Shown here: one piece after another, positions 1,461-40,585 of the stretch | Numbering within the stretch: the first letter of the stretch is position 1 | Layout: every line of letters begins with the position of its first letter | Assembly (NCBI GenBank): GCA_029339505.1 | Contig: JAQISU010000026.1 | Span: 538,501 to 602,500 of the forward strand | Direction: 5' to 3' | DNA length: 64,000 nt | From: Unio delphinus | Taxonomy: Eukaryota; Mollusca; Bivalvia; Unionida; Unionidae | Translations under genes and position numbers: made by a program | Notes under the pieces: model-generated | Seen by the model: only the letters and a program-made list of their open reading frames with translations | The model's database searches: none | What the model was told of the DNA's origin: nothing

Positions 1461-1724
1461 AGCAGCATAGAGGGTGAACAGACCAACTTTTTAAACAAAA
1501 TATTTCGTAAGCGTTTCGTTACAAAACCGAAACAAAAAAAAATCTTACGATGATAGTTGCCAATTTAGTTGTCACAAACAACGGCTGCGACACTGCAACG
1601 TCCCAAGGCAACGTTGTAAGCGGTCGTCGTGAAAATTCTTCGAATTTCAACAATGAAAAAAAATAATCTTACAATTTAGTTGGCGTTCACACTCTCTGCT
1701 GCTATGCGCTAACAATTTTTTTAC
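1461..1724. repeat. Element A left terminal inverted repeat (264 bp)
   Basis: This matches the reverse complement of 16758-17019 with only a few differences that I can see: two homopolymer length changes and at least two substitutions, roughly 98% identity. Its outer end is AGCAGCATAGAGGGTGAAC. Near its inner side, at 1685-1703, lies the inverted counterpart GTTCACACTCTCTGCTGCT, so the repeat is itself bounded by an inverted motif. Confidence 0.92.
1631..1648. repeat. Short palindrome within left TIR of A
   Basis: GAAAATTCTTCGAATTTC: near-perfect 7-8 bp arms around a 3-nt centre. Its reverse complement recurs at 1756-1773, and the family recurs in several genes of A. Confidence 0.7.
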
Positions 1725-1755
1725 GATGAAAGTCCTAGGACGAAAATCCTTTGCT

Positions 1756-1773
1756 GAAATTCGAAGAATTTTC
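1756..1773. repeat. Short palindrome between left TIR and first gene of A
   Basis: GAAATTCGAAGAATTTTC, the reverse complement of the palindrome at 1631-1648. It lies just downstream of the penton-like gene, where it could form a hairpin in the transcript. Confidence 0.7.
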
Positions 1774-1786
1774 ACGATGAAAGTCT

Positions 1787-3119
1787 TTAAGACTTTACAA
1801 ACAGACTAATTTGCAAAACCTCACCTCGCAGATCAATCAAATTATTAGATTGGTCAGTGAGTTTGAAATTAATTCTCGTTAAAAAATTATTATGACATCG
1901 CATATAGACTGGATTAGTTGGGTCTTCAATAATTAGAAATCCTGGAGGAGCCGTTGGTGCAAATGAATATAGAATATATCCTTGCTGAGCTTGATTTGAT
2001 TGCTCAAGATTTATTTGATAGCTTCCTTCGATAACGTCACATACTAAATTCAATGATATCACCGAGGATATATTTACGTTGTTCGGAGCGATATGTCTAC
2101 CGCCGCCTTCTGGATCATTATTGTGTTTAAGGGTTTTTATTTCCGGTGATGTTGTTTTTTTTCCATTCATCGTTAATTTTCTTAAACCCGATATCGATGG
2201 CATAACTGAGATATTTTTTTAATTCGTCGGGGTTATATCCTGGAAGCTTAAACGTGGAAATATCTTCATGGATCTTATACTTCCCTCTAAACATTTCCAT
2301 AAATTTTTCATCTGATAACACCTCTTGAATAATTTTCTCATGAAATATTTCCATATCGTTGATGATTTTATTACATGTTTCTACGACGCTGATAAATTCA
2401 TCTCTGGTGAGAAAGCCAGATTTGAGAGATATTAATAGCAGTGATAGATCGTTATTAAACGCTGTTAAATTTTTTTCGATAGACCCAAAGTGTATAGTTG
2501 GTAACAAATCTGGGCGATTATTCATGAATTTGTTAGGGGAATGATCTTCATAAGTTTTTATTACACTATCAGGTTTTATCCTGTCGGATACATAATCAGA
2601 TTTTTTTGGTTCTGGTATATCAACGGTTTTTTCTTCTCGTCGAGGTGGTAGTTCGGGCCATCCTAACACTGATCTTATAGAACTCTGATAAATATCTACA
2701 ACATACCCAGGGGAATTAATCTCGATCGCAGATGATAACGTCGGCTCGTGAACCGTTATAGCGATTTTTGATTCTTTTCCAGTGATAGATTTTATTCTTC
2801 GTTGTAATTCGTTATTGATTTGTTCGATTTGATATGACCCTGTTGGTAACGAGACAACGTTCCAGTCTGGGGTTCCGTCTTCACGATTTTTCCACGCGAA
2901 CACCAAGGAATTATTTGGTTGTTGACCACCAAATGCTACCGATCTGATATTGGGCCAGCTATGATACACTCGTAGTTTTGCTAACGCGATCTCGCTCACT
3001 GGAACGGGAATCGGGAAATTCACACTGAATTCAGGACGAGTTGAGGTTACTGATATCATGCTTGTTTTCACCGGTGTTGTATTTGTTACTATTTGTTGAA
3101 GGAGTTTTTGCGACGACAT
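1787..3119 (-). pseudogene. Penton/minor-capsid-like virion protein, frameshifted
   Basis: Two overlapping leftward frames (2127-3119 and 1787-2203) together match the single 459-residue protein of element C (38594-39973). The N-terminal part has IALAKLRVYHSWPNIRS, a PTGSYQIEQINNEL segment and QSSIRSVLGWPELPP. The C-terminal part has SYQINLEQSNQAQQG, then APTAPPGFLIIEDP, and ends LRGEVLQISLFVKS. Proteins with this plan are widespread in invertebrate Polintons, where they are usually uncharacterised; a beta-rich penton or spike is my inference. The break is an extra base in a T run near 2150-2161 (as written on +), a homopolymer slip or possibly a sequencing error. The N-terminus overlaps the upstream membrane-protein gene by 89 nt in another frame. 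Confidence 0.75.
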
Positions 3120-3588
3120 TGTTATTATTATTTTTCTGCTCTAATTTTAGCATTGTCTGTTTATACAATTGAGCCATCGTTGAAAATTCGCTATCTGATA
3201 TTGTTGTGTCGTCGAGTGACGATGATATCAACGAGGATAATTGCGAGTAACCGGCAGATGCAATGTGAAATTTAATTACATAATCGTTTAGTTTACTCTG
3301 GCTACACGATGATAGTTTTTTTGTGATCCCGGTTAATATACCCGCAATTGTAGCCACCGCGGAAATAGCGATTGGAACTACGACCGGAGCAATCATTGTA
3401 ACTGAAGATAGTATTATCCCAGCAGCAGTGATTACTTCCGACACCGAGTACACGGTGATATCAACTGCGGTTATTCTTCGTTGGTATTTTTTGATTTTTA
3501 TTTGATACTCCTCACAGAGAGAACTGAGTTTAGTTTGAAATTCTCTGACTTGATCATAGCGATACTGATACACTGAGGGGATCGTCAT
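3031..3588 (-). CDS. Membrane-spanning virion-associated protein, Polinton type
   Basis: 185 residues. The N-terminal third is basic and helical (residues 1-40), then a long hydrophobic stretch at about 45-95 (ITAAGIILSSVTMIAPVVVP onward) could form two membrane segments with a tight turn. A helical region follows, with ISDSEFSTMAQLYKQ near 150, and a low-complexity Asn tail. Proteins with this plan (helix, hydrophobic Gly/Ala hairpin, ISDxEF helix) are recurrent but uncharacterised in invertebrate Polintons. A role in membrane interaction during assembly or entry is inference. The start MTIPSVYQ is chosen because the C copy begins at the equivalent place. The 3' end overlaps the penton-like gene by 89 nt. 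The C copy carries a nonsense codon. Confidence 0.75.
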   Translation of the reverse strand: MTIPSVYQYRYDQVREFQTKLSSLCEEYQIKIKKYQRRITAVDITVYSVSEVITAAGIILSSVTMIAPVVVPIAISAVATIAGILTGITKKLSSCSQSKLNDYVIKFHIASAGYSQLSSLISSSLDDTTISDSEFSTMAQLYKQTMLKLEQKNNNNNVVAKTPSTNSNKYNTGENKHDISNLNSS

Positions 3589-3596
3589 TTTATTTT

Positions 3597-3647
3597 AAAA
3601 GCGCTAGCATTTTCAATTGTGATTTCCCTTAAAAACGCTAGCGTTTT
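3597..3647. repeat. Pair of CGCTAGCG palindromes in the intergenic gap
   Basis: Two related palindromes, one centred on GCGCTAGC (3597-3613) and a perfect AAAACGCTAGCGTTTT (3632-3647), fill the short gap between the fibre-like and membrane-protein genes. The same core is found in C at 40586, 44772, 45036 and 50539. Confidence 0.75.
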
Positions 3648-4681
3648 CAATTTAATTGTTTACTTAAATCCACTACGAATTCTACGTACCACGTTACTGA
3701 AACCCTGACTAGATTTCTATCTGTGGTCGTTATCGTGAATTGTTCAGATACATCCTTGTCGATGATCGTTGATATCGTATTATTGACTCCAGATGAACTA
3801 CTTGATGATATATTAAACTGATTCGGTGATACTATTGTTAATCGATAAATACCCTTGACGGTTGCGGTTACGTGTAAAATGTTATTTGTGGGAGTCCACG
3901 CAAATGATCCGTAATGGATTGTGTATACGTTGTTGACAATGATTTTTTTATCATGAGGAATTTTTATTTTTTCAACAACGCTTATCATCCTCGTTGCATC
4001 ATCTTTCATTGCATTGTTGAATGTTTTAAGCTCATCGATGGATTTTTTAATATCAGGAAGGGTTATTTCAATTTTATCAAATGGGGTTCCAATAAACTTG
4101 TCAATGATGTTTTTACGAAACATTGAAAACTGTTTCACGTGTTTATCATATTCGGATTGAAGAGTTGCTAGTTCCAACATAGAATCTTTTATCGAGGTGA
4201 GTTTTGGTGTGGTCACTGGTGGATTTCCAAAAAATTCTAGCAGGGGTTTATCAATTTTGTCAATTGTATTTCTTTGTAATTCAGAAAACTGATCAAATAC
4301 AACTATATGATCGTCATACTTATCATTGAGTGATTTCAATGAATTCGCCGTGTTATCGAATGTTGCTAATTTATCCGTAATTGTTGAAACAAGTACACCT
4401 GGTTTGAGTTTACCCTGATCGGAAAATAACGCGATAGCATCCTCTGCTGCGTCTCGTCGTTTAATTAAAATATCATCGAGGGAGACATTACTAGTTTTCA
4501 ATTTACCCTGACGATCGCCAAATATAACTATTTCACCAGGATCAACACTTGCTAAGTTCAACGTTTCGGCTATTTCATCTTCGATTAGTTTTTTAATACC
4601 CTTGATTTTATCAAGGATTTCAACTCCACCAGGTTCGGGTTTCTTCAGCGTTTCTTCAGGTCGTCCCCAAATATCAATCAT
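3647..4681 (-). CDS. Fibre-like protein: coiled-coil stalk with beta-rich C-terminal head
   Basis: About 344 residues from the MIDIWGRP start. I prefer this to an upstream Met because the C copy also begins MIDIWGR. After a variable leader comes a VDPGEIVIFGDRQGKLK block (about residues 50-65), conserved in B and C. A long helical, coiled-coil-prone region with repeated FFGNPPV-type spacers follows (about 100-235). The C-terminal 110 residues are beta-rich, with YTIHYGSFAW, GIYRLTI, a Ser run and WYVEFVVDLSK. Stalk plus compact head suggests a receptor-binding fibre or spike, which is inference from architecture alone. The gene lies between the protease and membrane-protein genes in the leftward virion block. 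Confidence 0.7.
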   Translation of the reverse strand: MIDIWGRPEETLKKPEPGGVEILDKIKGIKKLIEDEIAETLNLASVDPGEIVIFGDRQGKLKTSNVSLDDILIKRRDAAEDAIALFSDQGKLKPGVLVSTITDKLATFDNTANSLKSLNDKYDDHIVVFDQFSELQRNTIDKIDKPLLEFFGNPPVTTPKLTSIKDSMLELATLQSEYDKHVKQFSMFRKNIIDKFIGTPFDKIEITLPDIKKSIDELKTFNNAMKDDATRMISVVEKIKIPHDKKIIVNNVYTIHYGSFAWTPTNNILHVTATVKGIYRLTIVSPNQFNISSSSSSGVNNTISTIIDKDVSEQFTITTTDRNLVRVSVTWYVEFVVDLSKQLN

Positions 4682-4710
4682 TGTTATCATAAAAATCTTT
4701 TCTCTGTTTA

Positions 4711-4723
4711 AAATCAAAGATTT
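4711..4723. repeat. Short palindrome upstream of the fibre-like gene
   Basis: AAATCAAAGATTT, with a second partial copy at 4727-4737, in the gap between the protease stop and the fibre-like start. Confidence 0.6.
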
Positions 4724-4725
4724 CA

Positions 4726-5151
4726 TCAAAGATTTTCAATCCAACGACCGCTAGTATACTCATTTACTACTACATGGGGTGGTTTTGATTGAGGAATCTT
4801 TGATTCCTTTGAAATAGCATCAAGTACGTTTAATACTTCATTGCCACATATGGGTGGGTCAAGCATTGTTTGTGTTGGTAACGTGGAATACCAACGGGTT
4901 TTTTTTAATTTACTTACATAGCGGTTAAATTCCTTCGGAGGCGCTAATCCATATGAGTCAAAATAAATAACCCCGCGTGGATCAATCGCGTATGCAACCC
5001 AGTGAGTTCCAGGTCCATCGCTGTTATCTAGATTAATAATACCGGTTTCAACATCATTTGGTTGTGCCGGTAATTGATCTTTCATAAAAACACCTCTGAA
5101 GTTTTTAATCGCGAGTTTTTTAGCGGCATCAATTAAATCAAAATTGGACAT
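4726..5151 (-). CDS. Adenain-like cysteine protease (capsid maturation)
   Basis: About 142 residues from MSNFDLID. The longer open frame upstream runs over the pX-like gene, and FRGVFMKDQLP near the N-terminus is the usual start region of Polinton proteases. The catalytic pattern fits the adenain/Ulp1 (C5) family: GTHWVAY supplies His, YFDSYG supplies the acidic residue, and TQTMLDPPICG supplies Gln and the nucleophile Cys. In adenoviruses this enzyme cuts virion precursors at (M/I/L)xGG-x or (M/I/L)xGx-G sites; such motifs are present in the pX-like and pVI-like proteins here. Two short palindromes lie in the open frame (4793-4807 and, in the upstream extension, 5168-5182). The C copy is frameshifted in an A run near its start. 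Confidence 0.88.
   Translation of the reverse strand: MSNFDLIDAAKKLAIKNFRGVFMKDQLPAQPNDVETGIINLDNSDGPGTHWVAYAIDPRGVIYFDSYGLAPPKEFNRYVSKLKKTRWYSTLPTQTMLDPPICGNEVLNVLDAISKESKIPQSKPPHVVVNEYTSGRWIENL
4793..4807. repeat. Short palindrome inside the protease gene
   Basis: GGAATCTTTGATTCC, 6-bp arms around TTT, encodes the variable KESKIP segment. The C copy has a different sequence here. Confidence 0.6.
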
Positions 5152-5167
5152 TGGAACCATCGGTTTG

Positions 5168-5182
5168 GAAATCGAAGATTTC
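5168..5182. repeat. Short palindrome at the protease/pX junction
   Basis: GAAATCGAAGATTTC lies in the short gap between the protease start and the pX-like stop. Confidence 0.6.
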
Positions 5183-5186
5183 TGAG

Positions 5187-5648
5187 TTAGTAAACCGGTC
5201 CTAGTCTCAGGCCGCTTCCGCCGTACCATGAATACGGGGTTCCTGGTAGTCTTAGACCCTTTCCCTTTCTTTTATAACCCTGCCCAGTTGCTTTCTTTAG
5301 TGCCATTCCTGCCGCGGTACCAACGGCTCCTAACGCTGCCGCTTTAGCCACCGCTGGGGCCGCTGCGGCAATCAACCCTGGAATCAACCCTAAGAGCGGG
5401 AATATACCACCAGTCTTTTCCATGTTTTTAATCGCGCTCGCAGAAAGAGTAACCTGAACTCCCTTTTTTTCTTTAAACGCTTTATTAAAATGATTAATCT
5501 GAGTTTTCGTCAGCGATAGTTTATTCCCTCCGCCATTCATTTGATTAGGTTTCAGCGTTATTGTGGTCCCACATTGCTTAGCTGATTTGGATTGTAATTT
5601 TTTTAACTGACCAGGTGTCAACGTAACATTGATATTACTATACGACAT
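5187..5648 (-). CDS. pX-like minor core protein (adenovirus-like)
   Basis: 153 residues from MSYSNINVTL; this start is shared with C. Residues 1-75 hold two TLxxxQxxxL-type segments. A hydrophobic Gly/Ala/Pro stretch follows at about 80-120 (KTGGIFPLLGLIPGLIAAAA onward), and the C-terminus is basic and Gly-rich with GLRLPGTPYSWYGG. A hydrophobic GGxxP segment plus basic regions resembles adenovirus pX/mu and the core protein reported from adintoviruses; the assignment is by architecture. QMNGG followed by G near residue 38 fits the adenain cleavage pattern, and matching motifs occur in the B and C copies. The gene lies between protease and capsid genes in all copies, including relic D2. Confidence 0.75.
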   Translation of the reverse strand: MSYSNINVTLTPGQLKKLQSKSAKQCGTTITLKPNQMNGGGNKLSLTKTQINHFNKAFKEKKGVQVTLSASAIKNMEKTGGIFPLLGLIPGLIAAAAPAVAKAAALGAVGTAAGMALKKATGQGYKRKGKGLRLPGTPYSWYGGSGLRLGPVY

Positions 5649-5669
5649 TGTACAAAACAGATTGATTCT

Positions 5670-5700
5670 AAATCGCAAGCGATTTTCATTGCACAGCAAT
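5670..5700. repeat. Two short palindromes upstream of the pX-like gene
   Basis: AAATCGCAAGCGATTT (5670-5685) and ATTGCACAGCAAT (5688-5700) fill the gap between the pX-like start and the capsid-gene stop. Confidence 0.7.
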
Positions 5701-5706
5701 TTTCAA

Positions 5707-7125
5707 TCAAATATTTTCCACTGGTGCATCTACCAGTCTCATTCGTCCACCAACACCCTCGAGTATCATTGATTTATCACTGAGAATGACAGCAACCGCT
5801 CTATAATTAACAATACCACCAGGACGGGTTACACGAGCTCGGAAGTGTATATCAACGACGGATTGTCTCATCAAGTCAAGATGTTCCAACGAAAAGTAAT
5901 AAATCGGATATAGATTTTTAAAATCCAACTGTGATATTTGTAGACCAGTATCGACATTTTGATCGCGTCCCATATACGACAGCAACCGATGATAAACTCG
6001 TGCAATATGGTTTTGACCGTAATTAAGTTGTATATCCTCTGATGGTTCTTGCTGTCCGTTTATTCTCAGCGAGACTTCACTACACCCAATTTGATCAAAT
6101 ATCATGTGGGAACGTTCTTGATTGTCTAATCGCGCAGTATTCTGTAGCGCAACAAATATGTGACGTGGAGCTGAAATACCCTGTTTTGATGCTAGATGCC
6201 ATGTAAGTGTACCATCAATATTAGAATCCATGGTATCTGTGGACGTTGACAACCAACTTAATAATCTCTTCCCCCCTTGATCCATAAATGATAGTAACCG
6301 CGGTTCTGTTGACAACGACGGAGTCAACACTGGCATCCACAGTGTTAGTTTTGATAAAACGACTTTACCCGCAGCGGCGCCAGTGCGCCAGATTGCATAA
6401 TTATCAGTACCCCTTCTCATTAGCGTTATAGTATGCTTTACTCCATAGATAACTTTTCTGACGTTTCTACAAAATCCAAATATGTGATGGAGCGGAATCG
6501 CGCATGAAAACCCTCGATTCTGTCCATGCAACGTTGCTACTCGTGTTGCAAATCCTAGGTTGTAACTGGTAATATTATTTATGACATCAAATTCAGCAGC
6601 TGGTCTTACATATCCGGCTGGTGCTGGATCAACTGCAGTAGCTCGTGTTGCTTTTACTCTAGAATACTGGACGTGTTCGGCGTTATCAGTAATATCCTTC
6701 GCGAACATCATAGACGGACCCGCTGATCTAGTATAGTCATCAGAGTATCTCGCTAACCCGATTATTCCCGTAGCAATATCAACCTCGCGTTCAATAGATT
6801 CGATTTCTCTTCCATCAATGAGATATCTAGCACTTTCAAATAAAGCCATGATGCCATTTTTAACAAAACCAACTCGGATAGTTGGGTCATTTGCATATGG
6901 TGGATCATTATGAGCTGCATCATCTGTTACGAGTTCACCTTCGACTTCAATAAAGGCTTCAGCGGGTAAAAAGTATTTACTGGTATCATGAACTTCAAGT
7001 TCAATTCTCCCCCGAAGATCAGGTTGTACTGCGTGATAGGCAAAAAATTGATAATCACGTACAGAATCATCTTTAAGTACTGGGGCGTCCATGTCAAATG
7101 CACTATCAGGGTTCTGTTTGAACAT
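5707..7125 (-). CDS. Major capsid protein (Polinton double-jelly-roll type)
   Basis: 472 residues from MFKQNPDS, a start shared with C. Conserved blocks run in the order seen in invertebrate Polinton capsid proteins: DTSKYFLPAEAFIEVEGEL (about 45-65), NGIMALFESARYLIDGREIE (about 90-110), PLHHIFGFCRNVRKVIYG (about 210-230), LTLWMPVLTPSL, then IFDQIGCSEVSLRINGQ and YPIYYFSLEHLD (about 400-415), ending near VEGV-type residues. The alternation of beta-strand-like segments fits a double jelly roll, but no structure was computed. It forms the icosahedral shell. Copies occur in C (487 aa, intact), B (decayed) and D2 (split by B). Confidence 0.85.
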   Translation of the reverse strand: MFKQNPDSAFDMDAPVLKDDSVRDYQFFAYHAVQPDLRGRIELEVHDTSKYFLPAEAFIEVEGELVTDDAAHNDPPYANDPTIRVGFVKNGIMALFESARYLIDGREIESIEREVDIATGIIGLARYSDDYTRSAGPSMMFAKDITDNAEHVQYSRVKATRATAVDPAPAGYVRPAAEFDVINNITSYNLGFATRVATLHGQNRGFSCAIPLHHIFGFCRNVRKVIYGVKHTITLMRRGTDNYAIWRTGAAAGKVVLSKLTLWMPVLTPSLSTEPRLLSFMDQGGKRLLSWLSTSTDTMDSNIDGTLTWHLASKQGISAPRHIFVALQNTARLDNQERSHMIFDQIGCSEVSLRINGQQEPSEDIQLNYGQNHIARVYHRLLSYMGRDQNVDTGLQISQLDFKNLYPIYYFSLEHLDLMRQSVVDIHFRARVTRPGGIVNYRAVAVILSDKSMILEGVGGRMRLVDAPVENI

Positions 7126-7195
7126 TTTTTATTATATATCCGATGGTTTAAATTGGAGATGAAATCGTGAAAATTCTTTGAAATTGCTTGGATTT

Positions 7196-7696
7196 TCATC
7201 GACGTCTTTGACGTTTGTAGAAATTCTTTGAATTTCCAAGGCCACTTCCCGCTATCATATTTGCTATTATATTATCTTGGGCGTTAGTCAACGATGACAT
7301 CATTGACTGTAGTTTTTCATCTACTGCGTTGTTTATTATTTTACTAACTCGCGCAGGCATAACCTCAGTAGATGGCAGTGATGAAATCACCGCTGGTTTC
7401 TTTGATTGGAAATTCTTCGAATTTCGCCGTCGAACTAACGCTGTTATTTTATCCTTCGCGGCTGAAAACGCCTTCGTGGCAAGATCACCAACAGCGTTAA
7501 TACCCTTATCCCTGATAACATCAATTGCTTTCATCGATAATTGTTTTACTAGCGGCGCTACTTTTGGAGCCATTCTTGAAAATAATCCCATTATAGTATT
7601 ACCGAGACCATCTCCATAGTATGCTCGGTATTTTGGCAATCGTGAGTTTACCACGTAGACGTTAGTTGGTTTATCATGGTTGTAGTGTATGATCAT
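7196..7696 (-). CDS. pVI-like minor capsid protein
   Basis: 166 residues from MIIHYNHDKPT. A YGDGLGNTIMGLFSRMAPKV segment (about 25-45) begins an amphipathic, Lys-rich helical region, followed by a basic linker, a second helix (about 115-150) and a short very basic tail KRQRRR. The Gly-rich motif followed by amphipathic helices is typical of the Polinton protein compared with adenovirus pVI, which is lytic for membranes and supplies the protease cofactor from its C-terminus. Here MIAGSGLGN fits an adenain site and would release a basic tail of about 15 residues. Two in-frame palindromes encode NSKNF twice (7409-7425, 7220-7236). The C copy is frameshifted. Confidence 0.72.
   Translation of the reverse strand: MIIHYNHDKPTNVYVVNSRLPKYRAYYGDGLGNTIMGLFSRMAPKVAPLVKQLSMKAIDVIRDKGINAVGDLATKAFSAAKDKITALVRRRNSKNFQSKKPAVISSLPSTEVMPARVSKIINNAVDEKLQSMMSSLTNAQDNIIANMIAGSGLGNSKNFYKRQRRR
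7220..7236. repeat. Short palindrome inside pVI-like gene, 3' end
   Basis: GAAATTCTTTGAATTTC, encoding NSKNF on the leftward strand. Same family as 7409-7425. Confidence 0.65.
7409..7425. repeat. Short palindrome inside pVI-like gene, middle
   Basis: GAAATTCTTCGAATTTC, encoding NSKNF. The C copy lacks this segment and is frameshifted at the same place. Confidence 0.65.
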
Positions 7697-7732
7697 TCTC
7701 TATTCAATTGATATTTATCTAATGTGATGACA

Positions 7733-8803
7733 TTAGTCACTATGATAACCGTCCACTAACTCTTCAATGAAATCTCGATATGTTGCAATATCCATGATAC
7801 CACCTTGAAATAACTTCCTACAGATATCAGCTGCTTCATTGATTATTTCCAGTGAGTTATTCCCAGCTCGTTTTCCTCCTAAGAGTACTTCTAATCGTGC
7901 TATATCACCGAGAATATTACCAGGACATGTTACACTAGCGTGAAAATCCATAGGATTTTTCCCAACTAAGCCACTACCCTTTTTTTTAGTTGTACCAGTT
8001 GCACCCTTCTTAGAATCAGCCTCTGCCATTATTTGTATTTCATCAGGGATTGGGTCTGCTGTGTATACTGGTGGTGCTGATGTGACTCCCTTTACCATAG
8101 CTAGAAATTGATTATAATCACTACTTATTTCTCTTGTGATTTTATTTTTCCTGCGATTTGCTAAAAACACCTTATTTGCCCAAACGGTTTCACCTTTTAC
8201 AAAATCTTTAGACGTTTCGTCTATTAAATACTTATCCCTTTTCTTTTTTTTAACGTTGTCTTTGGTAAATTTAGCTAATTCAGAGTTTGTTTGGATATTT
8301 CTGATTGTATTTAACGCATCAACTGTAAATATATTTTCAGGAGAATAATCCCCTTTTGAAACAGCTCCCTCTTCTTCTTCTTCTTCTTGAAATTCTTCTT
8401 GAAATTCTTCAGGTGGTGGTGAGGAAATATCAACATCACCTAATCGTTCAATTTCTTCCTGAAGTTCTCGTTGTTGTTCTTCTTGTCGTCTTGCAGTAGT
8501 TATTATATCACCAGGAAGTGTTTTTAATGATTTTTTTGTTTGTTTAGTTCGTTTTGCTATTTTCTCTAACACAGGGAGAAAGGACTCTTTCTGCGCGCTT
8601 TCTTGTTTAGAAATTGCAGTTTTCACATCTGTAGTTGCAGTAACGATCGGCTTAAAGAGCTGTTGTGTATCCTCTGTAAAATCAGTCTGAAGTAATTGCC
8701 GTTGTTGAAGTTTTTCACGTATACGATCACGAAGGGGTAATATTTTATTAAGAGCGCTAAGTCGTTCTTTTGTGTTCCGTGTGGTCATTGATTGTCCTAC
8801 CAT
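7733..8803 (-). CDS. Large scaffold-like Polinton protein
   Basis: About 356 residues from MVGQSMTT. The open frame extends further upstream, but C begins at the matching MVNEALTT. The N-terminal part is helical (LRDRIREKLQQRQ), with a QLFKPIV block and a Lys-rich coiled coil. The centre is acidic and variable, with a poly-Glu run. The C-terminal 60 residues are the best conserved: CPGNILGDIARLEVLLGGKR, AGNNSLEIINEAADICRKL and TYRDFIEELV. A terminal domain with AGN and an NEI-type helix recurs in a large uncharacterised Polinton protein family. A scaffold or internal virion role is inference. A palindrome at 7942-7959 lies in frame, and C has a related palindrome at the same site. Confidence 0.65.
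   Translation of the reverse strand: MVGQSMTTRNTKERLSALNKILPLRDRIREKLQQRQLLQTDFTEDTQQLFKPIVTATTDVKTAISKQESAQKESFLPVLEKIAKRTKQTKKSLKTLPGDIITTARRQEEQQRELQEEIERLGDVDISSPPPEEFQEEFQEEEEEEGAVSKGDYSPENIFTVDALNTIRNIQTNSELAKFTKDNVKKKKRDKYLIDETSKDFVKGETVWANKVFLANRRKNKITREISSDYNQFLAMVKGVTSAPPVYTADPIPDEIQIMAEADSKKGATGTTKKKGSGLVGKNPMDFHASVTCPGNILGDIARLEVLLGGKRAGNNSLEIINEAADICRKLFQGGIMDIATYRDFIEELVDGYHSD
7942..7959. repeat. Short palindrome inside the scaffold-like gene
   Basis: GAAAATCCATAGGATTTT, 8-bp arms around a 2-nt centre. The C copy has AAATCCAAGGATTT at the equivalent position (45006-45019). Confidence 0.65.
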
Positions 8804-8837
8804 TATTGAAAGAGTATCAGTATTGTTAAATTGCAAT

Positions 8838-8854
8838 GAAAATCGAAGATTTTT
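8838..8854. repeat. Short palindrome upstream of the scaffold-like gene
   Basis: GAAAATCGAAGATTTTT, located 35 nt before the chosen start of the gene. Confidence 0.6.
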
Positions 8855-8985
8855 AATTGAAACTCGTTGCATTTCACAAGTAAAAAAAAAAGAATACACT
8901 AACTTGTTATACTTCCCTGTTGTTGCACATACACATAATTTTACTTCCTCGTTTGCCCAGGTGGTGATTAAACAAAGGAGGCTCT

Positions 8986-9345
8986 CTACGCGTGGGGCTC
9001 ATCTTGCTCCATTAACATTTTTAATTGTCTCGCCTTATAATTAATAAGCTTCCTTTGTTCATAATCTAAGCCTAATTGCTTTCGTACACGTTCAACGATG
9101 CTACATAATGGTACGAATACATTAACGTCTTCGGTATTGACTAAACTTTCACGTATAAGTTTTTGTATCCGCTTAGTTAAAAAATATTTCTTAGCGAGGA
9201 CGTATTTTCCATTTTGTTCTGAAAATAATATGTCCTCGAAATCGGTCATAATTTGATCACAATCTAACCCTGAACATAATTTTACATTTTGATCTTTAAG
9301 CTTGTTGATTTCAATAATAATCAATTTGAGATTTTCAAGATTCAT
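8986..9345 (-). CDS. Small viral protein of unknown function (119 aa)
   Basis: 119 residues, largely helical and charged, with no recognised domain. It matches the protein at 46103-46459 in C and the relic at 816-1178 in D1. Shared features are an LxPDQIMxDF-type motif near residue 30, a KKYxLxKRIQ helix near 55, a PLCSIVERVRKQLGL-type helix near 85 and a final basic helix. Conservation in three elements shows that it is real. It is the last gene of the leftward virion block before the HNH nuclease, so it may be a virion or regulatory protein; I cannot tell which. Confidence 0.65.
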   Translation of the reverse strand: MNLENLKLIIIEINKLKDQNVKLCSGLDCDQIMTDFEDILFSEQNGKYVLAKKYFLTKRIQKLIRESLVNTEDVNVFVPLCSIVERVRKQLGLDYEQRKLINYKARQLKMLMEQDEPHA

Positions 9346-10190
9346 ATTATATAAAAATATATTTGCTGAATTGCTTGAATGAAACTTCTTTAGAATTTTT
9401 CACAAAATGAATTCTGGACATGCTAAGGTGTTGATCATCTTAGCAGCCCAGAAGCTTAGTGCGATTATAGGTGATTATGATTATAGATGACGACGGCACT
9501 TGCAACCCCATTATCTAGTCATGTAGGCGGTTGTATTATACACATACGACGGTACAACAATAGATTATAGGTGATTATGGTATTTACAATGACAATGACG
9601 ACGGTACAACAATAGATTATAGACGATTATTTACAATGACAATGAATGACGACGGTACAACAATAGATTATAGGTGACACAATGAATTGATTTCAATGAC
9701 AATGGATGACGCGGGCTATTCTACATTCAAGTGTAAAACCAAACCTGAAATCGAAACCTGGTTTGAATGTCAATAATAACGTTCACGCCACGTGTGATTT
9801 CAGGTTTGGTTTTACAATTAAATTTCGGATAAGCCCAATTATAACAAAGACGGATTTGTATATAACCACTCATTACAACGAAGTGACATAAAGAGGTGTA
9901 GTGCTTGTAATTGTTTGTTTTGTTTATTAGCGATCACTGATAACGTTGAAAACACGCATAATACTTGAAACAGACACTAAAAAAAATGTTTAAATACGAC
10001 GTGTATATGAAACAGTTCTGTTAATACTTGAAAAAAAAACGAAATTGATTATATTCTGTTCAGATTTATAATAGCGAAACTAACCAATCAAAATCAATGA
10101 CTGTGTTTAAGATCCGTAACTCTGTCATTGGTGATTTATCACACACGCGTTACCTAACGGAGTTATTTCCCGTCAATGCAAGTTTACGTA
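9346..10190. other. 840-bp non-coding insert specific to element A
   Basis: In C the same two genes are about 45 bp apart, so this stretch is extra in A. It contains three imperfect tandem copies of about 50 bp carrying GACGGTACAACAATAGATTA (roughly 9548-9675). A 20-bp inverted repeat follows: GTAAAACCAAACCTGAAATC near 9733-9752 and its complement near 9797-9817. Two AATACTTGAAA motifs lie near 9959 and 10023. No open frame here looks like a gene. It may be a small non-autonomous insertion or a replication/regulatory region. Confidence 0.55.
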
Positions 10191-10682
10191 TTATACATAA
10201 GAAAACTGAATTTTTTGTCCGTTTTTTCTGGAAATCGCCGATTTTTGTACTCGTTCTGCAACGAATCGTACTGATGATATACAAATATCGAAATACCTAC
10301 TGGCGCTATTCAAAGATTGAAATACTATCTCCGTGTTATTTGCCGTATTAAACGACTTTACTGGTCTAGCATTTTTCGAGTATTTCCCAGTCCCACCTCG
10401 TTTGGAGTTTTCACGTTGTGAAATAGCTTGTAGATTCGATAAAGAATTATCAGTCTTAATGCTATTTATGTGATCAATAACAAAACCATCATTGATCAAT
10501 CCGTTAAATACTTCATAGACGAAACGGTGATTGAGATACTTCCCCCCTCCAGCGCCAAATATCAAATATCCTTGATTATTCACAACACCAACAGATTTCT
10601 TGAGTCTACAGTGTCTGACAATACCATCACGAGAAGCTTCGTAATTTTCAATAACAGGATGTCTTTGGAATTCTTGGTTAAT
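10191..10682 (-). pseudogene. Stand-alone HNH homing-type nuclease with NUMOD-like domain, start codon lost
   Basis: The leftward frame encodes HRFVYEVFNGLINDGFVIDH followed by NNSLSNLQAISQREN, the His/Asn core of an intron- or phage-type HNH nuclease. It is followed by a NUMOD1-like helix-turn-helix (IVFQSLNSASRYFDICISS). Compared with B, where the gene starts ATG AAC CAA GAA, codon 1 here is ATT (10680-10682). The frame stays open, and GTG at 10581-10583 is the first alternative start, inside the domain. In C codon 3 is a stop, so both good copies are damaged at the very 5' end. It lies between the small protein and the zinc-ribbon gene in A, B, C and D1. It may act as a selfish nuclease or in DNA processing. 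Confidence 0.78.
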
Positions 10683-10699
10683 TTGTATACATAATATAT

Positions 10700-11041
10700 C
10701 TATTTGTCTAATTCGTTAATTGGCTGAATTATAACATTGGCAAATCTTTTTATGTAGTCGTTGGCAGTTTTTATTATTTTGCCGTTGACGTTGTCATTGA
10801 CAGAGTCAGAATTTTTGATTCTTCGCTTGTCATAATAACGCTTCAACTCTCTAGAACGCTTACCCCCGCAATTAACGCATAACTGCGACTTGCCTCTTAC
10901 ACCTACCTCACAATACAGACACGGAAGAGGGCCTTTTGAACCGTTTCTCGCACTTTGCATATGATACCCACAAAATTCATTTCTGCATGATTTGTTACAC
11001 GGAGTCTTTGATCCAATCATGAGCCATTTGCAATGATTCAT
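10700..11041 (-). CDS. Zinc-ribbon protein
   Basis: 113 residues from MNHCKWLMIG. Paired cysteines and a histidine suggest at least two zinc sites: C-x3-C and FCGYHM in the first 30 residues, then PCLYC and LCVNCGGKR at about 40-60. A basic helix (RELKRYYDKRR) and a charged tail follow. It is conserved in A, B, C and D1, always directly divergent from the replication gene. Nucleic-acid binding, perhaps as a regulator or partner of the HNH nuclease, is inference. The family is not recognised. Confidence 0.65.
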   Translation of the reverse strand: MNHCKWLMIGSKTPCNKSCRNEFCGYHMQSARNGSKGPLPCLYCEVGVRGKSQLCVNCGGKRSRELKRYYDKRRIKNSDSVNDNVNGKIIKTANDYIKRFANVIIQPINELDK

Positions 11042-11084
11042 TATATAAAAAACTTTTTATTTAAATACTTGTTTTAATTATAAT
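11042..11084. promoter_or_regulatory. Divergent promoter between zinc-ribbon and replication genes
   Basis: Only 43 bp separate the two start codons. The gap has TATATAAAA near 11043-11051 and an ATTTAAATACTTGTTTTAATTATAAT stretch that is almost the same in C (47425-47466). The TATA-like and Inr-like character is visible; promoter activity is inferred from the divergent layout and the conservation. Confidence 0.5.
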
Positions 11085-14000
11085 ATGAAGGAATTCAAGA
11101 GATTATCGAAAATTACGCCTTGGAAAAATACTAGATTTAATCTCGATAGAATCTCTGATAAACCAAAAAGTCTAATAGATGACAAAACCATATTGAGTAA
11201 AATCAGTGACTGTTTTAATGAGTTTAAGCGCGATGGAGCATCTCATACGTGGTCGACATTTCGAATTATCAATGATGATGTCAATGTACCCGTAATTGAT
11301 GCTACTATGAACGATACAAGAGCAGCTGAGATACTTTCACACCTTGGCGGGAAATACAAGGGTGGAAATCCAAGAGGGTATTTTTTTAGAATAAAATTCA
11401 TTATCGAAGACCAAGGTGAATGGGTTATCAGAGATAAATTTGAACCAATCCTCAAGGATAAAAAAACTGTTATTGTGAGTAGAGATTCCAAACCAGGAAT
11501 TCTAACTGGAATTGACAAACCATACTACGCGAACCGTTACCCTGTAACAGTAGTTGTTTACGGAATATACCCACTAAATGATAAGCCAAGTATTGCAAAA
11601 CTAGCTCCAATGTTTTCATCGTCGAAATCACAAGGTGATTCAACGTTGAATTGTATAGCAACACGGGTAATGGAACACTTCACAAATGCATCCCGGGGGA
11701 ATAAACTAACTGAACAACGACGAAAAAAAATAACCGAATGGGAACTGACAGTGAAACAGCGCGGGGCAAAGATTTCCGATATAACCAAATTAGAAGCATC
11801 ATTAAAATTTCCAATATCGGTAGCAACGATAACCGGAGAAGTATTATACGAACCGAAATATCAATCGCGAGGAGCTCCAATTGAAATTATTGATCATAAC
11901 AAACACGCGTGGACACCTGCGGTAAATATATTTCCACGAGAACGAATCGTGAGATATATCCCCGGGGAATTTCTCAAGGATGTGTTCTATGAAGAGAAAT
12001 TATTTGATGCTATTGTTACGTTGTGTAAAGATGATCCCGTGTCAGTGTGGTTACTTCGCAGCGCTGAAGATTCCGAATCAGGATTTGATCAGTTTGTAAG
12101 ACCAAATGGAGAATTATATCGCGTTGAAGAATTAGATAACAGAATGAGAAAAATCGCTAATGAATTTTCACCGGAGAGTTTCCATGAAAAACTACTCACG
12201 GATAGTTTTACAATTCCATCAGTGGTAGCTCATTTTGCAAGAGAAAAGAACTCATGGCGTCCAACACGAAGTGATTTTCTCGAGGATGTCAAATTGAGTT
12301 GCGTCGAATTAGGTCATGGAGGATTGTGGAATACGAAATACTCACGTGATGGTATGATTTCAATTGATATATCCGCGTGTTATCCTGGAAGTTTTCTCGG
12401 GTATGGAGAATACTCTGAGTATTTTAAACGATTTGGACACCCCACGCATAAAATGACTCGTGTTGCGATTAATGGTCGTTTGCCTGATTTTGATTTAACC
12501 GGGTTCGCTCGTGTGATATCATTTGAACTCGCTGCAGGGTTACATCCGTGTAGTTATGTTTGGCTTGGTAGACATATGTCTGAAAAACACTGGATGCCAA
12601 TAGTGCTATTGAGATATATGATCGATTGTGGTATGCTAATATCGTTAATTGTCAGTGAAGCGATTATATGCTATCACGCGCAGAAGGATGTTTGGTTACC
12701 AAAACCTGATCTAGATCGTATAATTGATGAAATACGAAAACAGTTTCCTAATTTCAGCGAGGAAGAAATCATGAAACTATCTAGGCAGTTATTTGAGATT
12801 AAAAACAAAGAAGCCAAAGATTTCGGACGAAAAATAATTGGTAAATTCACTCAAGGTGGAAGATTTGACAATGCAAAATACTCTTCGAGGTTGATCATAG
12901 ACAACGCAGAATACGATTTTATTGTAGCGGATTTAACGAAACAGGGAAAACTTGTATCCCGTAGGGATGCTTTTCTATCCAATGGTGAGAAATTAGGTAC
13001 GGTTGTTACCTACTGTGATGGATATAGTTGTCAGTACACACATTTGAGAAGTTCTATGCTAGCCTATGCTTGTATTAATCTATTTTCGATGATAAATAGA
13101 TTTCCAGATACCGCGGTTAGAGTAGCTACTGATTCGATGTATATCCACAACAAATACAGATCAGATGTAGCGGTATTCACAGGTCCCGAGGAAGCGTGGG
13201 GGCGTTGGCGATTTAAAAAGGAAAAACTACATGAGTATTGTGAATCCGCAGACGTTGCCATCGACGATAAATACTTGAAAAGCAACCATAATCTCTCAGA
13301 GATTCAATCAGAATTTTCTAATGCACCACCCGTATCTGATCCCGTATGTAGATACAAGACAGTTTATTTAAACGGTTGTGGTGGGTCAGGAAAGACAACT
13401 CGTGCAATTGAATTATTTCGTCGGGAAAATCCTACGGATTTCACAAACATGATTGTGCTAACACCAACTCACAGATTCGCCAGAGAGATGATAGCGCGGG
13501 GAGTAAAAGCCTGTACTTATCATAGCTTCTTTCGATGGAAAGGCTATACATGGACTCCTGATCGAATGGGCGATAAATTCATTCCTGAAATCATAATCTG
13601 GGATGAAATATGCACGGTATCGTTGACAGTATTACAGACATTTCTTGAATGGTTGTTATTGAAAACTACAAAAGTCGTCATGTGCGGGGATCACGGCCAA
13701 CCACAGCCATTTGTTGGTGGATCTCCACATGAATGGCTAAAGGGATTTGTAGATTATTATGAAGAAATTAATACCGACCATAGATCACTTGATGAACAAT
13801 TACGAGAATTCAAAGCGCTAATTAGATTACAACCGGATAAAATCCAATGTGAAATAGCGCGTGAAATAATTTCAGAAACTCCCATGAATGATTTTTGGGA
13901 AACATGGAAGCCAGATGATTTGATATTCGCAAGTAGAAAAATAGTCAGAGACGCATTTCAGATGAAGTTATTTGAATTGCATAAATGTAAATTTGCAACA

Positions 14001-14618
14001 CTTCCAGTACCGTTGTGTTATAGGCCAAAAGATACACGAAAGCAGAATATCGACGTTGACATTCCTGGACAACAACAAAAGCAGAATTTAGTATTAAATG
14101 ATATTGTGCTGGTTGATATCAGCGTCGTCGAAGATGCATTGCGTGCTGATAAATCCCCATGGACGTTAGGTTATGCAGCAACAATACACTCTTCACAGGG
14201 ATTAACTATCACAGACACAATTGTTTGGATAGTAGATAATCACATTGAGTGGTCAAATTTAGTTTATTTTGCAGTGTCCAGAGTACGGCGAATAAACCAA
14301 CTTCGAAGAATTGTTTTCGATGATGCCAGTGACGATATTGTCAGCGCCGATGATATAATCAGAAAAAAACTCTCTGGTTATAAACAACAGGATAAAAAAA
14401 ATAAACGAGAATTTGACATTGATGCTGAATTAATAATTACGCTGAAGCAACAACAGAATAATCACTGCGCGAGTTGCAATTGTATAATGCGTTGGCAGTA
14501 TTCGGATAAAGATCCTCGCCAATTTACCGTAGACAGAAAAAATAACAATCTCGGTCATGTCAGAAACAATGTGAGGTTGACTTGTCTTGAGTGCAATAGA
14601 CGCAAAGGTGCTAGTTAA
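11085..14618 (+). CDS. Replication protein: family B polymerase-like palm + SF1 helicase + HNH nuclease
   Basis: 1177 residues, intact. The N-terminal 400 residues include an LNCIATRVMEHF block near 190 and HNKHAWTPAV near 270 and show no clear exonuclease motifs. The palm has SIDISACYPGSF (motif A, Asp 428), an AKDFGRKIIGKFTQGGR segment in the motif B position, and VATDSMYI (motif C, Asp 683; DTDS is reduced to ATDS, keeping the second Asp). The helicase has Walker A GCGGSGKT (764-771), Walker B IIIWDE (Asp 840), GDHGQ (868-872), and ATIHSSQGLT then AVSRVRR near 1032-1065, an SF1 Pif1/RecD-like set. The C-terminus has CxxC, TVDRKNN and LTCLECNRRK, an HNH fold with zinc cysteines. It probably replicates the element. 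The domain order is unlike the usual Polinton polymerase seen in D2. Confidence 0.88.
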   Translation: MKEFKRLSKITPWKNTRFNLDRISDKPKSLIDDKTILSKISDCFNEFKRDGASHTWSTFRIINDDVNVPVIDATMNDTRAAEILSHLGGKYKGGNPRGYFFRIKFIIEDQGEWVIRDKFEPILKDKKTVIVSRDSKPGILTGIDKPYYANRYPVTVVVYGIYPLNDKPSIAKLAPMFSSSKSQGDSTLNCIATRVMEHFTNASRGNKLTEQRRKKITEWELTVKQRGAKISDITKLEASLKFPISVATITGEVLYEPKYQSRGAPIEIIDHNKHAWTPAVNIFPRERIVRYIPGEFLKDVFYEEKLFDAIVTLCKDDPVSVWLLRSAEDSESGFDQFVRPNGELYRVEELDNRMRKIANEFSPESFHEKLLTDSFTIPSVVAHFAREKNSWRPTRSDFLEDVKLSCVELGHGGLWNTKYSRDGMISIDISACYPGSFLGYGEYSEYFKRFGHPTHKMTRVAINGRLPDFDLTGFARVISFELAAGLHPCSYVWLGRHMSEKHWMPIVLLRYMIDCGMLISLIVSEAIICYHAQKDVWLPKPDLDRIIDEIRKQFPNFSEEEIMKLSRQLFEIKNKEAKDFGRKIIGKFTQGGRFDNAKYSSRLIIDNAEYDFIVADLTKQGKLVSRRDAFLSNGEKLGTVVTYCDGYSCQYTHLRSSMLAYACINLFSMINRFPDTAVRVATDSMYIHNKYRSDVAVFTGPEEAWGRWRFKKEKLHEYCESADVAIDDKYLKSNHNLSEIQSEFSNAPPVSDPVCRYKTVYLNGCGGSGKTTRAIELFRRENPTDFTNMIVLTPTHRFAREMIARGVKACTYHSFFRWKGYTWTPDRMGDKFIPEIIIWDEICTVSLTVLQTFLEWLLLKTTKVVMCGDHGQPQPFVGGSPHEWLKGFVDYYEEINTDHRSLDEQLREFKALIRLQPDKIQCEIAREIISETPMNDFWETWKPDDLIFASRKIVRDAFQMKLFELHKCKFATLPVPLCYRPKDTRKQNIDVDIPGQQQKQNLVLNDIVLVDISVVEDALRADKSPWTLGYAATIHSSQGLTITDTIVWIVDNHIEWSNLVYFAVSRVRRINQLRRIVFDDASDDIVSADDIIRKKLSGYKQQDKKNKREFDIDAELIITLKQQQNNHCASCNCIMRWQYSDKDPRQFTVDRKNNNLGHVRNNVRLTCLECNRRKGAS

Positions 14619-15556
14619 GACCACGCGGTGGCAATTGAGTATCCTCGGGAATCACTTGTAACTGTTGTCGAGTAAATCCTCGCTGAGGAGCAGTTGAATC
14701 CAGTTTATAGATTGCTGGTCTACCAGTTGATCGTGTTATGCCGGATATTTTATGCGTAGTGACGCTCCAAATAGGATCAGTAGCTCTTTTTTTTACCACC
14801 CTCAAGCTCTCCTGGTTCGTATAAGTACCTCACAATGACATTACTACTAAGAATTAGTTCTTTGAAATCTTTTTGTGGTTGTACGGGTATATACTTCTTT
14901 TTAATAGCGTTGACAGGTTTCATATTAATTGTTCTAGTAATCTCATTATTGATTGCGGTAACTACACCTGGTAATCTCTTGACCCATTCACGGGATCGTT
15001 TATCCTGGATGAATTCTTTCGCGTATTGATATCCAAATAACCGCTCAGCAAGTGTCCGATTAAACCGTTCTACAATTGCCTGATCGCGATGTAGCGCAGT
15101 ATGCCCTCGTCTGATGGCGACATTATGATGTTTCATCATTGTTAAAACAGCGCCTTGAAATTCCTTGCCAGGATCAACTTGTAACAGATTTGGCCAGCGC
15201 AGAGGACCTCGTCGATAAATTTTTTCAAATGCAGAAGCTACTTCAGTAGATGATTTTGTCCTTAGCGGTTCTGCTTGTTTGTATCGACTCGCAATATCAA
15301 CTAACGTTAACGCGTATTTGTAACCGTTGTCATGCGGCAGAAATAGTATATCAGCTTGATGAACTTCATTAGGAACGGTCACATCAAAATGCGAGTAGTT
15401 AATTTGTTTAGGCGCTGGTAGATAAATTTGCCATATTGCCTGTTTGGATAACCAGTTAGCTGCAGTGGTTTTTTTCACCTTTGATGCGCTAGCGAGTTTA
15501 TTGATTGCTGCGTAACCTCTCCAGTATCCTCTCGGAGAATAATAAATAGATTCCAT
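14611..15556 (-). pseudogene. Retroviral-type integrase (rve, Polinton), C-terminus frameshifted
   Basis: The start MESIYYSPRGYW is shared with C and typical of Polinton integrases. The catalytic core shows the D,D(35)E pattern: HQADILFLPHD, LQVDPGKEF and HRDQAIVERFNRT. RLFGYQYAKE and WVKRLPGVVTAINNE follow, then RYLYEPGELEGG. A homopolymer change near 14790 (T run on +) shifts the frame after EGG. The remaining C-terminal segment (ATDPIWSVTTHK to the end) continues in another frame to 14611. It would insert the element into host DNA, making the 5-bp duplication. Its stop overlaps the convergent replication gene by 8 nt. The C copy is intact at 315 residues. Confidence 0.9.
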
Positions 15557-15560
15557 ATTT

Positions 15561-16076
15561 TTAATTACCAGCACCTAACACCAATTTACCCTTCATAGCA
15601 GATTTTACCAACCACGAAGCCAATTTTTCTTTGAAGGATTTATCAGGAATAGCATTTAACGCATGAATTAATTTTACATCTGCTAGATGTCTATGCTGCA
15701 AATTGCTGCTTTTATAAGCGACATCATGAGCATGACACGCCTTATCAATAGCGTTTATTGGATACTCGCCGGGTCGGGGCTGATTTTGATCATCAAGTCT
15801 GATATCTAATCGTGTTCCCGATCCACAGTAGCTATATCCTGGAAGGTGCTTTTCTCCTGGATACTTTGCCCACGGTGTTCCTGGGAGTTTTGCTAACTTG
15901 GCTGCAATATCACCTCCTCGTTTTTTTTTTAAAGGTTTCGTGGAAACAAATCTAAATTTCTTTGTACTACATTGTACGCATTTACCAGAAAGCGCTGATC
16001 GATTATTTTTCGTTGTAATCGTCGTCAAGTCATTTGTGCCAGTACGCGTCCTACATTTCACACAATATAGATCCAT
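15561..16076 (-). CDS. Zinc-ribbon plus parvovirus-type phospholipase A2 domain protein
   Basis: 171 residues. Residues 1-48 form a zinc ribbon starting MDLYCVKCRT with a second CxxC at GKCVQCSTKK, resembling DUF5679 of large DNA viruses. From about residue 75 a PLA2 domain has LPGTPWAKYPG, then YSYCGSGTRLD (calcium loop, YxGxG), then KACHAHDVAY with the catalytic His-Asp pair. The helical tail is LADVKLIHALNA. Such domains in parvovirus VP1 breach endosomal membranes, and PLA2 genes have been reported from adintoviruses. A membrane-breaching virion protein is the likely role. The gene ends 4 nt before the integrase start and diverges from the ATPase. The C copy is frameshifted between the two domains. 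Confidence 0.85.
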   Translation of the reverse strand: MDLYCVKCRTRTGTNDLTTITTKNNRSALSGKCVQCSTKKFRFVSTKPLKKKRGGDIAAKLAKLPGTPWAKYPGEKHLPGYSYCGSGTRLDIRLDDQNQPRPGEYPINAIDKACHAHDVAYKSSNLQHRHLADVKLIHALNAIPDKSFKEKLASWLVKSAMKGKLVLGAGN

Positions 16077-16093
16077 AATTTATATATAACGAC
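16077..16093. promoter_or_regulatory. Compact 17-bp divergent promoter region
   Basis: The start codons of the PLA2 gene and the ATPase are only 17 bp apart. The gap is AT-rich with TTTATATATAA. In C the equivalent gap is also 17 bp (53211-53227). Confidence 0.45.
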
Positions 16094-16758
16094 ATGAATG
16101 TAATTGATTATTCAGCTACGAGACGACGGGAACCTATTAGACACCATGCAATGTTACCAAATTCTATTCGCGCGATTATCATCGGACCATCTGGATCCGG
16201 CAAGACACAATTGCTACTTAATTTGATAACGAGATGGATGGCGTGGGATAAGTTGTATATGATTGCTCCGAGTGTAGATGATCAGCGATGTTATGAAGTG
16301 TTAAAGGATTTTAACGAAGCCGCGCGAGAAATTAACGGCGATGATATTATTGAGTTTATAACCGATATTGAAGAGGCACCTAGCATTGACTCCATCGACT
16401 GAAGTATTAACAATTTAGTCGTATATGATGATATCATGTTAGATAATCAAAAAAAAATCCTGCTAGAATATTTTCCCGAGGCAGACATAAAAACACCGAC
16501 GTGATATATATCACTCAACGTTACACTCAAATACCAAAAGTGATCCGAGATAACTGCAATATGCTGTGTGTATTTAACGGAGTTGATACTCATACTCTTA
16601 GAAATATTTGGCAAACTTGGTGCGGTGGCGATATGGATCATAATCAATTTAGAAATTTCTTTAGCCGCGCTCAGACAATCCCACACGGATTTGTAACGAT
16701 AAATTTATCAGACCCTCGGGCAAGATATCGTGTCGGACTTGACCAAATATTTAATTAG
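16094..16758 (+). pseudogene. A32/FtsK-HerA-type DNA-packaging ATPase, broken
   Basis: The N-terminal part reads MNVIDYSATRRREPIRHH and has Walker A IIGPSGSGKTQ near residue 40 and APSVDDQRCYEVLKDF. A nonsense TGA replaces the Gly of SIDDIDGD at about 16400, and a one-base deletion in an A run near 16450 shifts the frame. The downstream part (VIYITQRYTQIPKVIRDN, NGVDTHTLRNIWQTW, YRVGLDQIF) continues to 16758. In Polintons this ATPase pumps DNA into capsids. The C copy (53228-53887) is intact. The 3' end abuts the right TIR. Confidence 0.9.
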
Positions 16759-17019
16759 TAAAAAAATTGTTAGCGCATAGCAGCAGAGAGTGTGAACGCC
16801 AACTAAATTGTAAGATTATTTTTTTCATTGTTGAAATTCGAAGAATTTTCACGACGACCGCTTACAACGTTGCCTTGGGACGTTGCAGTATCGCAGCCGT
16901 TGTTTGTGACAACTAAATTGGCAACTATCATCGTAAGATTTTTTTTGTTTCGGTTTTGTAACGAAACGCTTACGAAATATTTTGCTTAAAAAGTTGGTCT
17001 GTTCACCCTCTATGCTGCT
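16758..17019. repeat. Element A right terminal inverted repeat (262 bp)
   Basis: Reverse complement of 1461-1724 with a few differences. The outer end is GTTCACCCTCTATGCTGCT; the inner bounding motif AGCAGCAGAGAGTGTGAAC lies near 16779-16797. Confidence 0.92.
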
Positions 17020-32500: not shown

Positions 32501-33141
32501 GATTATTGATGGTCGTATTGAGTGGTGAAATTTAGTCTATCTTTCATGAGTCAGAAAAATAACTCAGCTGCGCTGAGGGTTAACGTAGACTTCGCAGAAA
32601 AAACTCGCGATGATGTTGACAATGATATAGTTAGATAAAAACTCGCTAGTTATAAACAAAGTGACAAACATAATCGTGACTTTTTGATATTGATACTGAA
32701 TTTATCAACACTCTGAAACATAATAATGATTATGTGAGCTGCAACAATAATGTTGTGGCGGTATTCAAATAATGATCTGGGTGCCCTGAGTAGCCGAGTG
32801 GCCTAAAGCGCTCTCCGTTACTGATCACTGCTATCTCACCTCTCTCTGCGTGGGTTCGAGTCTCAGATTCGGTCAATGTGGGTATGGGAGAAAGCTTGCC
32901 AGAAGCATCTCGTGGGTCGATGGTTCTTTCCGTGGGTTTCCTGGGGTCTCCTCCACCAATAATACTGGCCGCCATGGTTAGCCTATCATGTCATGAAAAA
33001 TGTCGTTAAACCCTATAAGAACAACAACAACAAATAATGTTCAAAGACAATTTACCGCAGATAGAAAAGATAGTAGTCTTCTTTACACGCGTGAAAGTAC
33101 GATGTTGAGCTTTCTTGAATGTAATAGACGTAAAGGTTCTA
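29564..33141 (+). pseudogene. B copy of the polymerase-helicase-HNH protein
   Basis: Begins MEEFERLSKIKPYKDKCNLN. Recognisable pieces include ASHVWSTFKI, FTVPSVAAHFTREKHSW (about 30660), GFARIVSFKITLSLHP (about 30940), RVATDSF (motif C, about 31440), VVLTPTHRLAREM (about 31740), LGYAKTIHSS (about 32440) and an HNH remnant. Walker A is degraded (LNEPGGKPC). Many stops. A SINE at 32775-33030 splits the HNH domain. Confidence 0.82.
32775..33030 (+). mobile_element. tRNA-derived SINE (Meta-type-like) in B
   Basis: About 256 bp. The 5' part has a box A-like TAGCCGAGTGGCCTAAAGCG and a box B-like GGGTTCGAGTCTC, as in a tRNA-Ser/Leu-like head. The central/3' region includes CCTCCACCAATAATACTGGCCGCC-like sequence, and the tail is (ACA)n. 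A 9-bp duplication CAAATAATG flanks it (32766-32774, 33031-33039). The 3' domain reminds me of the conserved domain of mollusc SINEs, from memory only. Confidence 0.8.
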
Positions 33142-33154
33142 GTTCAATGAAGAC

Positions 33155-38576: not shown

Positions 38577-38593
38577 TTTAGGACGAAAATCAT

Positions 38594-39973: not shown

Positions 39974-40135
39974 GATTTATTTCTAATTTTGGTATCGAGG
40001 AATCATAAATACTGACCATCACTGAGAACTCACAATCTGGTAATGTTGATATTATTGAGATCATTTTGTTTTTTGGGTTCGTGTTTTCTGATTCCATCGG
40101 TGTTGTCATTGTTATTATACTCATGTTGTCGCTCT
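39962..40135 (-). repeat. Local tandem duplication at the penton/membrane gene junction
   Basis: The segment coding FSAMVSIFDSAISKLE and HEYNNNDNTDGI recurs as FSVMVSIYDSSIPKLE and HEYNNNDNTAGI immediately downstream, each followed by a MSIITMTTP-type start in another frame. Element A has one copy. Confidence 0.65.
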
Positions 40136-40575: not shown

Positions 40576-40585
40576 TGTTATTTTA

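Follow-up and report, generated by a model that had tools for sequence, protein, structure and literature searches.

The window analysed here is a 64,000-nt stretch of the mussel Unio delphinus (GCA_029339505.1, contig JAQISU010000026.1, positions 538,501-602,500, forward strand), and all coordinates below are positions within it. It contains a Polinton-like element, A, which carries a gene for a large fusion protein. This gene is a single open frame of 1177 codons without internal stop, joining a family B polymerase palm, a Pif1/RecD-type superfamily 1 (SF1) helicase and a C-terminal HNH domain. The element, the gene and its parts are located as follows:

1461..17019, no strand: Polinton-like element A, 15,559 bp, with terminal inverted repeats (TIRs) and a 5-bp target duplication
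11085..14618, plus strand: fusion gene of A, 1177 codons (terminal protein (TP)-like, OTU-like, PolB palm, SF1 helicase, HNH)
11232..11582, plus strand: putative TP-like domain (candidate LF/PAD-type fold), residues about 50-166
11538..11540, plus strand: Tyr152, proposed priming residue, in the loop that connects helix 145-148 to strand 154-163
11580..11909, plus strand: putative OTU-like cysteine protease, residues about 166-275, with Cys190 and His274
11940..13259, plus strand: exonuclease remnant and palm, residues 286-725
12366-12368, plus strand: motif A, D428
13125-13133, plus strand: motif C, A681-D683
13335..14333, plus strand: SF1 helicase (Pif1/RecD type), residues 751-1083
14442..14615, plus strand: HNH with two CxxC pairs, residues 1120-1177

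The domain order is TP-like, OTU-like, exonuclease remnant, palm, SF1 helicase and HNH, the two N-terminal names being putative. A sequence-only reading had proposed a divergent family B palm, an SF1 helicase and an HNH in one 1177-codon protein of a Polinton-like element, and this is borne out by the domain matches and the motifs around D428 and D683. With 60 database relatives and at least 39 scored places on host contigs, the window's own copy included, a chance frame is ruled out. In two fold searches, the phi29 polymerase was the sole DNA polymerase among the best 50 rows of each, alongside SF1 helicases. The phi29 alignment, judged from its end points, covers residues 286-725 and thereby Asp 428 and Asp 683; these end points are also what it offers on the TPR1 and TPR2 subdomains expected in Tlr1-like helicases. 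The best match in BFVD was H6WBE3 (999 aa, without a name), with 1186 columns and an E-value of 1.2e-27, while the mavirus polymerase came at rank 22. No Tlr1 or transpoviron proteins were named among the matches of three database searches, and a profile comparison did not link it to the host's own gene of the protein-primed family B polymerase (pPolB) type.

According to PMC11071308 (cited, like the other papers below, from the available part of its text), Tlr1-like helicases are fusions of pPolB with an SF1 helicase (pPolB-S1H) found in Polinton-like viruses (PLVs), the Tlr1 element and transpovirons. A GIY-YIG or an HNH stands at their C-terminus, and the first Asp of their motif C is missing. 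The design is therefore known, the mussel protein most likely being another member of the pPolB-S1H fusions, and an undescribed architecture is rejected. We consider it likely that the protein behaves as a pPolB-S1H fusion (Tlr1-like helicase) encoded by an integrated Polinton-like virus, and most probably is one.

Palm motifs A, B and C were found, with motif C lacking its first Asp as in the Tlr1-like helicases. Among the relatives D683 and S684 are invariant and D428 nearly so, and in 42 aligned rows the first Asp of motif C is replaced by Ala in 41 and by Val in one. There is no Asp or Glu among those columns between 276 and 405 that are invariant or nearly invariant, which counts against an active exonuclease there. 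Among eight fetched host copies, the six without stops gave an overall dN/dS of 0.33, with 0.24 for the helicase, 0.46 for the palm, 0.50 for the OTU-like part, 0.18 for the HNH and 0.67 for the linker, based on 15 dependent pairs. In the L002-L003 pair alone, the palm has 2 silent and 8 replacement differences. The altered motif C in all 42 rows and the moderate dN/dS of the palm could point to a dead palm in a protein that serves as a helicase only, the view of Krupovic et al. (2016) as retold in PMC11071308. We regard this as improbable: D428 and D683 are conserved, and no polymerase family was matched in the 14 other frames in or at A. Moreover, the view was withdrawn in 2024 in PMC11071308, because active polymerases miss the same Asp, and the changed motif C is argued there to be still active.

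Within one frame, the SF1 helicase follows the palm and is itself followed by the HNH, which is present in 39 of the 42 rows. Wherever present, including fungal P0055 and mollusc P0044 and P0046, it sits at the extreme C-terminus, as an enduring component of the fusion protein. The six open copies (L002, L003, L004, L006, L008 and L009) have two versions of the HNH (residues 1120-1177). The synonymous divergence (pS) of this part, 0.207, is far above the 0.031-0.094 of the other parts, so it looks like 3'-end exchange between copies by homing or gene conversion. Compatible with a pPolB-S1H fusion, the HNH itself could be a selfish homing nuclease that is carried along by the replicase gene and plays no role in replication. 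Homing or intein invasion is the published reading of such domains (PMC11071308), and the two versions and the free HNH_3 gene adjoining the fusion gene agree with it, while the constant C-terminal place speaks against it. We give this possibility slightly less than an even chance.

At the N-terminus, position 152 is Tyr in all 39 rows that have a letter there, and Pro153 is nearly invariant. As described in PMC11071308, the priming residue of a PRD1-like TP, a Ser or Tyr, lies after helix 2 and before strand 4 and has a Gly or Pro close by. Tyr152 and Pro153 have this placement, given our assignment of helix 145-148 as helix 2. Upstream of the palm, Cys190 and His274 are nearly invariant, corresponding to the Cys/His pair of the viral OTU protease (vOTU). 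When the N-terminus was searched alone, 48 of the best 50 rows belonged to two kinds of protein, OTU-type proteases and Y-family polymerases; these are the folds that PMC11071308 gives for vOTU and PRD1-like TP. From these weak fold matches and the conserved residues, a TP-like domain and an OTU-like protease seem to be retained, and the fusion protein may still contain a built-in protein primer together with the protease that would release it.

Two points weigh against identifying the protein as a pPolB-S1H fusion: the N-terminal folds score under the noise level of the tool itself, and the H6WBE3 match has a TM of 0.22-0.25 despite its E-value. Because of the former, our confidence in that identification was lowered slightly, from high to fairly high. 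The same weak N-terminal folds would suit an alternative in which fusion to the helicase takes the place of protein priming, replication is primed by the 3' end of a nick that the HNH makes in the TIR, and the N-terminal domains are relics; the frequent occurrence of the HNH and its dN/dS, the lowest of the parts measured, also fit. However, Tyr152, Cys190 and His274 are conserved and the palm resembles the protein-primed phi29 enzyme, which makes this alternative improbable. It takes up the earlier proposal that a fused helicase could remove the need for protein priming, which is not supported, since the TP-like domain and the OTU-like protease seem to be kept.

The analysis shows the open frame with its motifs, the folds of palm and helicase, their conservation, the ends of the element, the number of copies and selection; on this footing a mode of action as a pPolB-S1H fusion can be proposed. 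Tyr152 of the N-terminal domain would be offered as primer at each TIR end, and the palm (D428, D683) would add the first nucleotide and then extend. The helicase, tethered to the polymerase, would open the duplex, and the OTU-like protease would free the primer domain. A candidate priming residue (Tyr152) and a protease pair (Cys190/His274) are now named; if true, protein priming persisted beyond the gain of the helicase.

The 60 relatives came from a database search, and two more searches added others. Named relatives occur in molluscs (Elysia and Sinanodonta) and in arbuscular mycorrhizal fungi (Rhizophagus, Gigaspora, Racocetra, Cetraspora, Diversispora and Ambispora), with one in a metagenome-assembled genome (MAG) labelled Candidatus Thiodiazotropha. 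Some weak helicase-only matches from the first profile search, which scored only the 7998 candidates with most shared words, were bacterial (Sharpea). Three scans of viral contigs (P0001, A1 and A3) yielded no relative of the fusion; one match there (L001) consists of an isolated helicase frame of 447 codons. The phage records searched gave no match. Among prokaryote genomes, one 3.2-kb contig (L018) of a Candidatus Diapherotrites MAG holds a relative in broken frames and is probably mis-binned.

In the host genome (2.5 Gb, 1246 contigs), 40 rows represent at least 39 places, the window's own copy counted and the last two rows being neighbouring pieces. This is a lower bound, with 39 of 71,710 first-look candidates scored. 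The matched frame is stop-free in 20 of the 38 one-piece places. In all eight fetched loci (own included), the fusion gene is flanked by INT- and PLA2-like matches on one side and by HNH_3 on the other; the free HNH_3 gene, with 68-100% identity over these loci, has diverged further than the fusion gene and the PLA2-like gene. This adds a multi-copy pPolB-S1H replicase family from a 2.5-Gb eukaryote genome, with about half of the scored copies stop-free. That the layout recurs as a lineage is thus supported by the relatives, the host copies and the layout of a second element, C, although the frame of C is broken and that of a third element, B, decayed.

As a separate observation, the host genome has pPolB-type (DNA_pol_B_2) genes at 75 scored places or more (L010-L017 among them). 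An open frame of 1361 or 1362 codons is present in 50 of the 75, many scoring equally, a pattern suggestive of a recent burst. A DTDS motif is present in one piece (L013). Eight fetched pPolB-type stretches of about 3.5 kb each were compared with ten genes, nine of A and the ATPase of C, and none of these matched.

The TIRs of A lie at 1461-1724 (264 nt) and 16758-17019 (262 nt) with 98.5% identity, flanked by the 5-bp duplication AACGA at 1456-1460 and 17020-17024. The target duplication usual for Polintons is 6 bp, versus 5 bp in A and C. Further Polinton hallmarks are an RVE integrase and a double jelly-roll (DJR) capsid gene, both present in A and C. An ordinary pPolB with exonuclease was not found in A (PF03175 unmatched, exonuclease carboxylates absent), and the elements are therefore named Polinton-like. 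The other features of A are:

4726..5229, minus strand: adenain-like protease (17.7 bits, under the Pfam cut-off of 21.3)
5707..7125, minus strand: further minus-strand part of A
10191..10583, minus strand: free HNH_3 gene, upstream of the fusion gene
14777..15574, minus strand: RVE integrase
15561..16076, minus strand: DUF5679 and phospholipase A2-like protein
16094..16758, plus strand: A32-type packaging ATPase, frame apparently interrupted in A

An HNH_3 frame at 16849-17220 extends into the right TIR of A and lies mostly beyond its right end; judging from it, the insertion site of A may have been next to or within an older element. LINE-type frames occupy 17734-20615 between A and B, one with a reverse transcriptase match (19413-19922). 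Rfam and tRNA scans gave no match. The other two elements contribute the following:

38301..54140, no strand: Polinton-like element C, 15,840 bp, with TIRs and a 5-bp duplication
48228..51727, plus strand: fusion gene of C, broken by one stop and one frameshift
29564..33143, plus strand: fusion gene of B, decayed

The TIRs of C (276 nt) are 100% identical and C has its own 5-bp duplication, GTAGT, which together suggest a recent insertion. Its A32-type ATPase is open at 53216-53887, where Pox_A32 matches. A repeat with about 90-nt spacing (47466-48367, eight overlapping copies of a 270-nt reference) lies upstream of, and runs into the start of, the C fusion gene. The older element B (24013-35043) lies between A and C, with a TIR-tip match at 24013 and its capsid module inverted relative to both.

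Compared with known systems, A and C share TIRs, RVE integrase, DJR capsid and A32-type ATPase with ordinary Polintons, whereas the fusion differs from their pPolB in having no exonuclease carboxylates, an added SF1 helicase and HNH, and an altered motif C. HelPol (PMC11071296) is also an unusual polymerase in adintovirus-like contigs; it was set aside as an identity, being PolBc/Pol-delta-like with no helicase fusion mentioned in the available part of its description. The OmPLV Helicase SF1-pPolB of Oxyrrhis marina (PMC12721341) also unites SF1 helicase and pPolB in one protein, but there the helicase is N-terminal (reversed order), the exonuclease is complete, no TP or vOTU is reported in the text available, and a tyrosine recombinase takes the place of the RVE integrase. 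Cryptophyte PLV helicases (PMC12220804) likewise have an HNH joined to the helicase and an adjoining RVE integrase, but their HNH is N-terminal. An Allomyces fungal PLV (PMC7805220) shares a major capsid protein, an ATPase and a DNA helicase with the mussel elements.

Tentatively, the lineage in animal and fungal genomes could be a living link between Polintons and PLVs/transpovirons, retaining the proposed ancestral PLV order TP-vOTU-palm-S1H together with Polinton-type genes and with the HNH as a regular replicase part. This has become slightly more doubtful because of the Allomyces PLV helicase, the published early Polintons of Glomus (Rhizophagus), in which, as far as the available text goes, a capsid gene was undetected, and published protist elements with helicase domains fused to an unknown domain. 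No mollusc or mycorrhizal-fungus case of a pPolB-S1H-HNH fusion was found in the literature searched, which covered few subscription papers and some sources in part, and the host range and possible PRD1-like TP may be new for pPolB-S1H fusions. The closest likeness is to the Tlr1-like helicases (PMC11071308), which share, besides a vOTU that is putative in the mussel protein, a palm lacking both the exonuclease and the leading Asp of motif C, the SF1 helicase and the C-terminal GIY-YIG or HNH, the RVE integrase being also present in Tlr1. Their middle domain is variable, and in the available text only TvV-S1 is named with a PRD1-like TP, a domain which the mussel lineage may retain.
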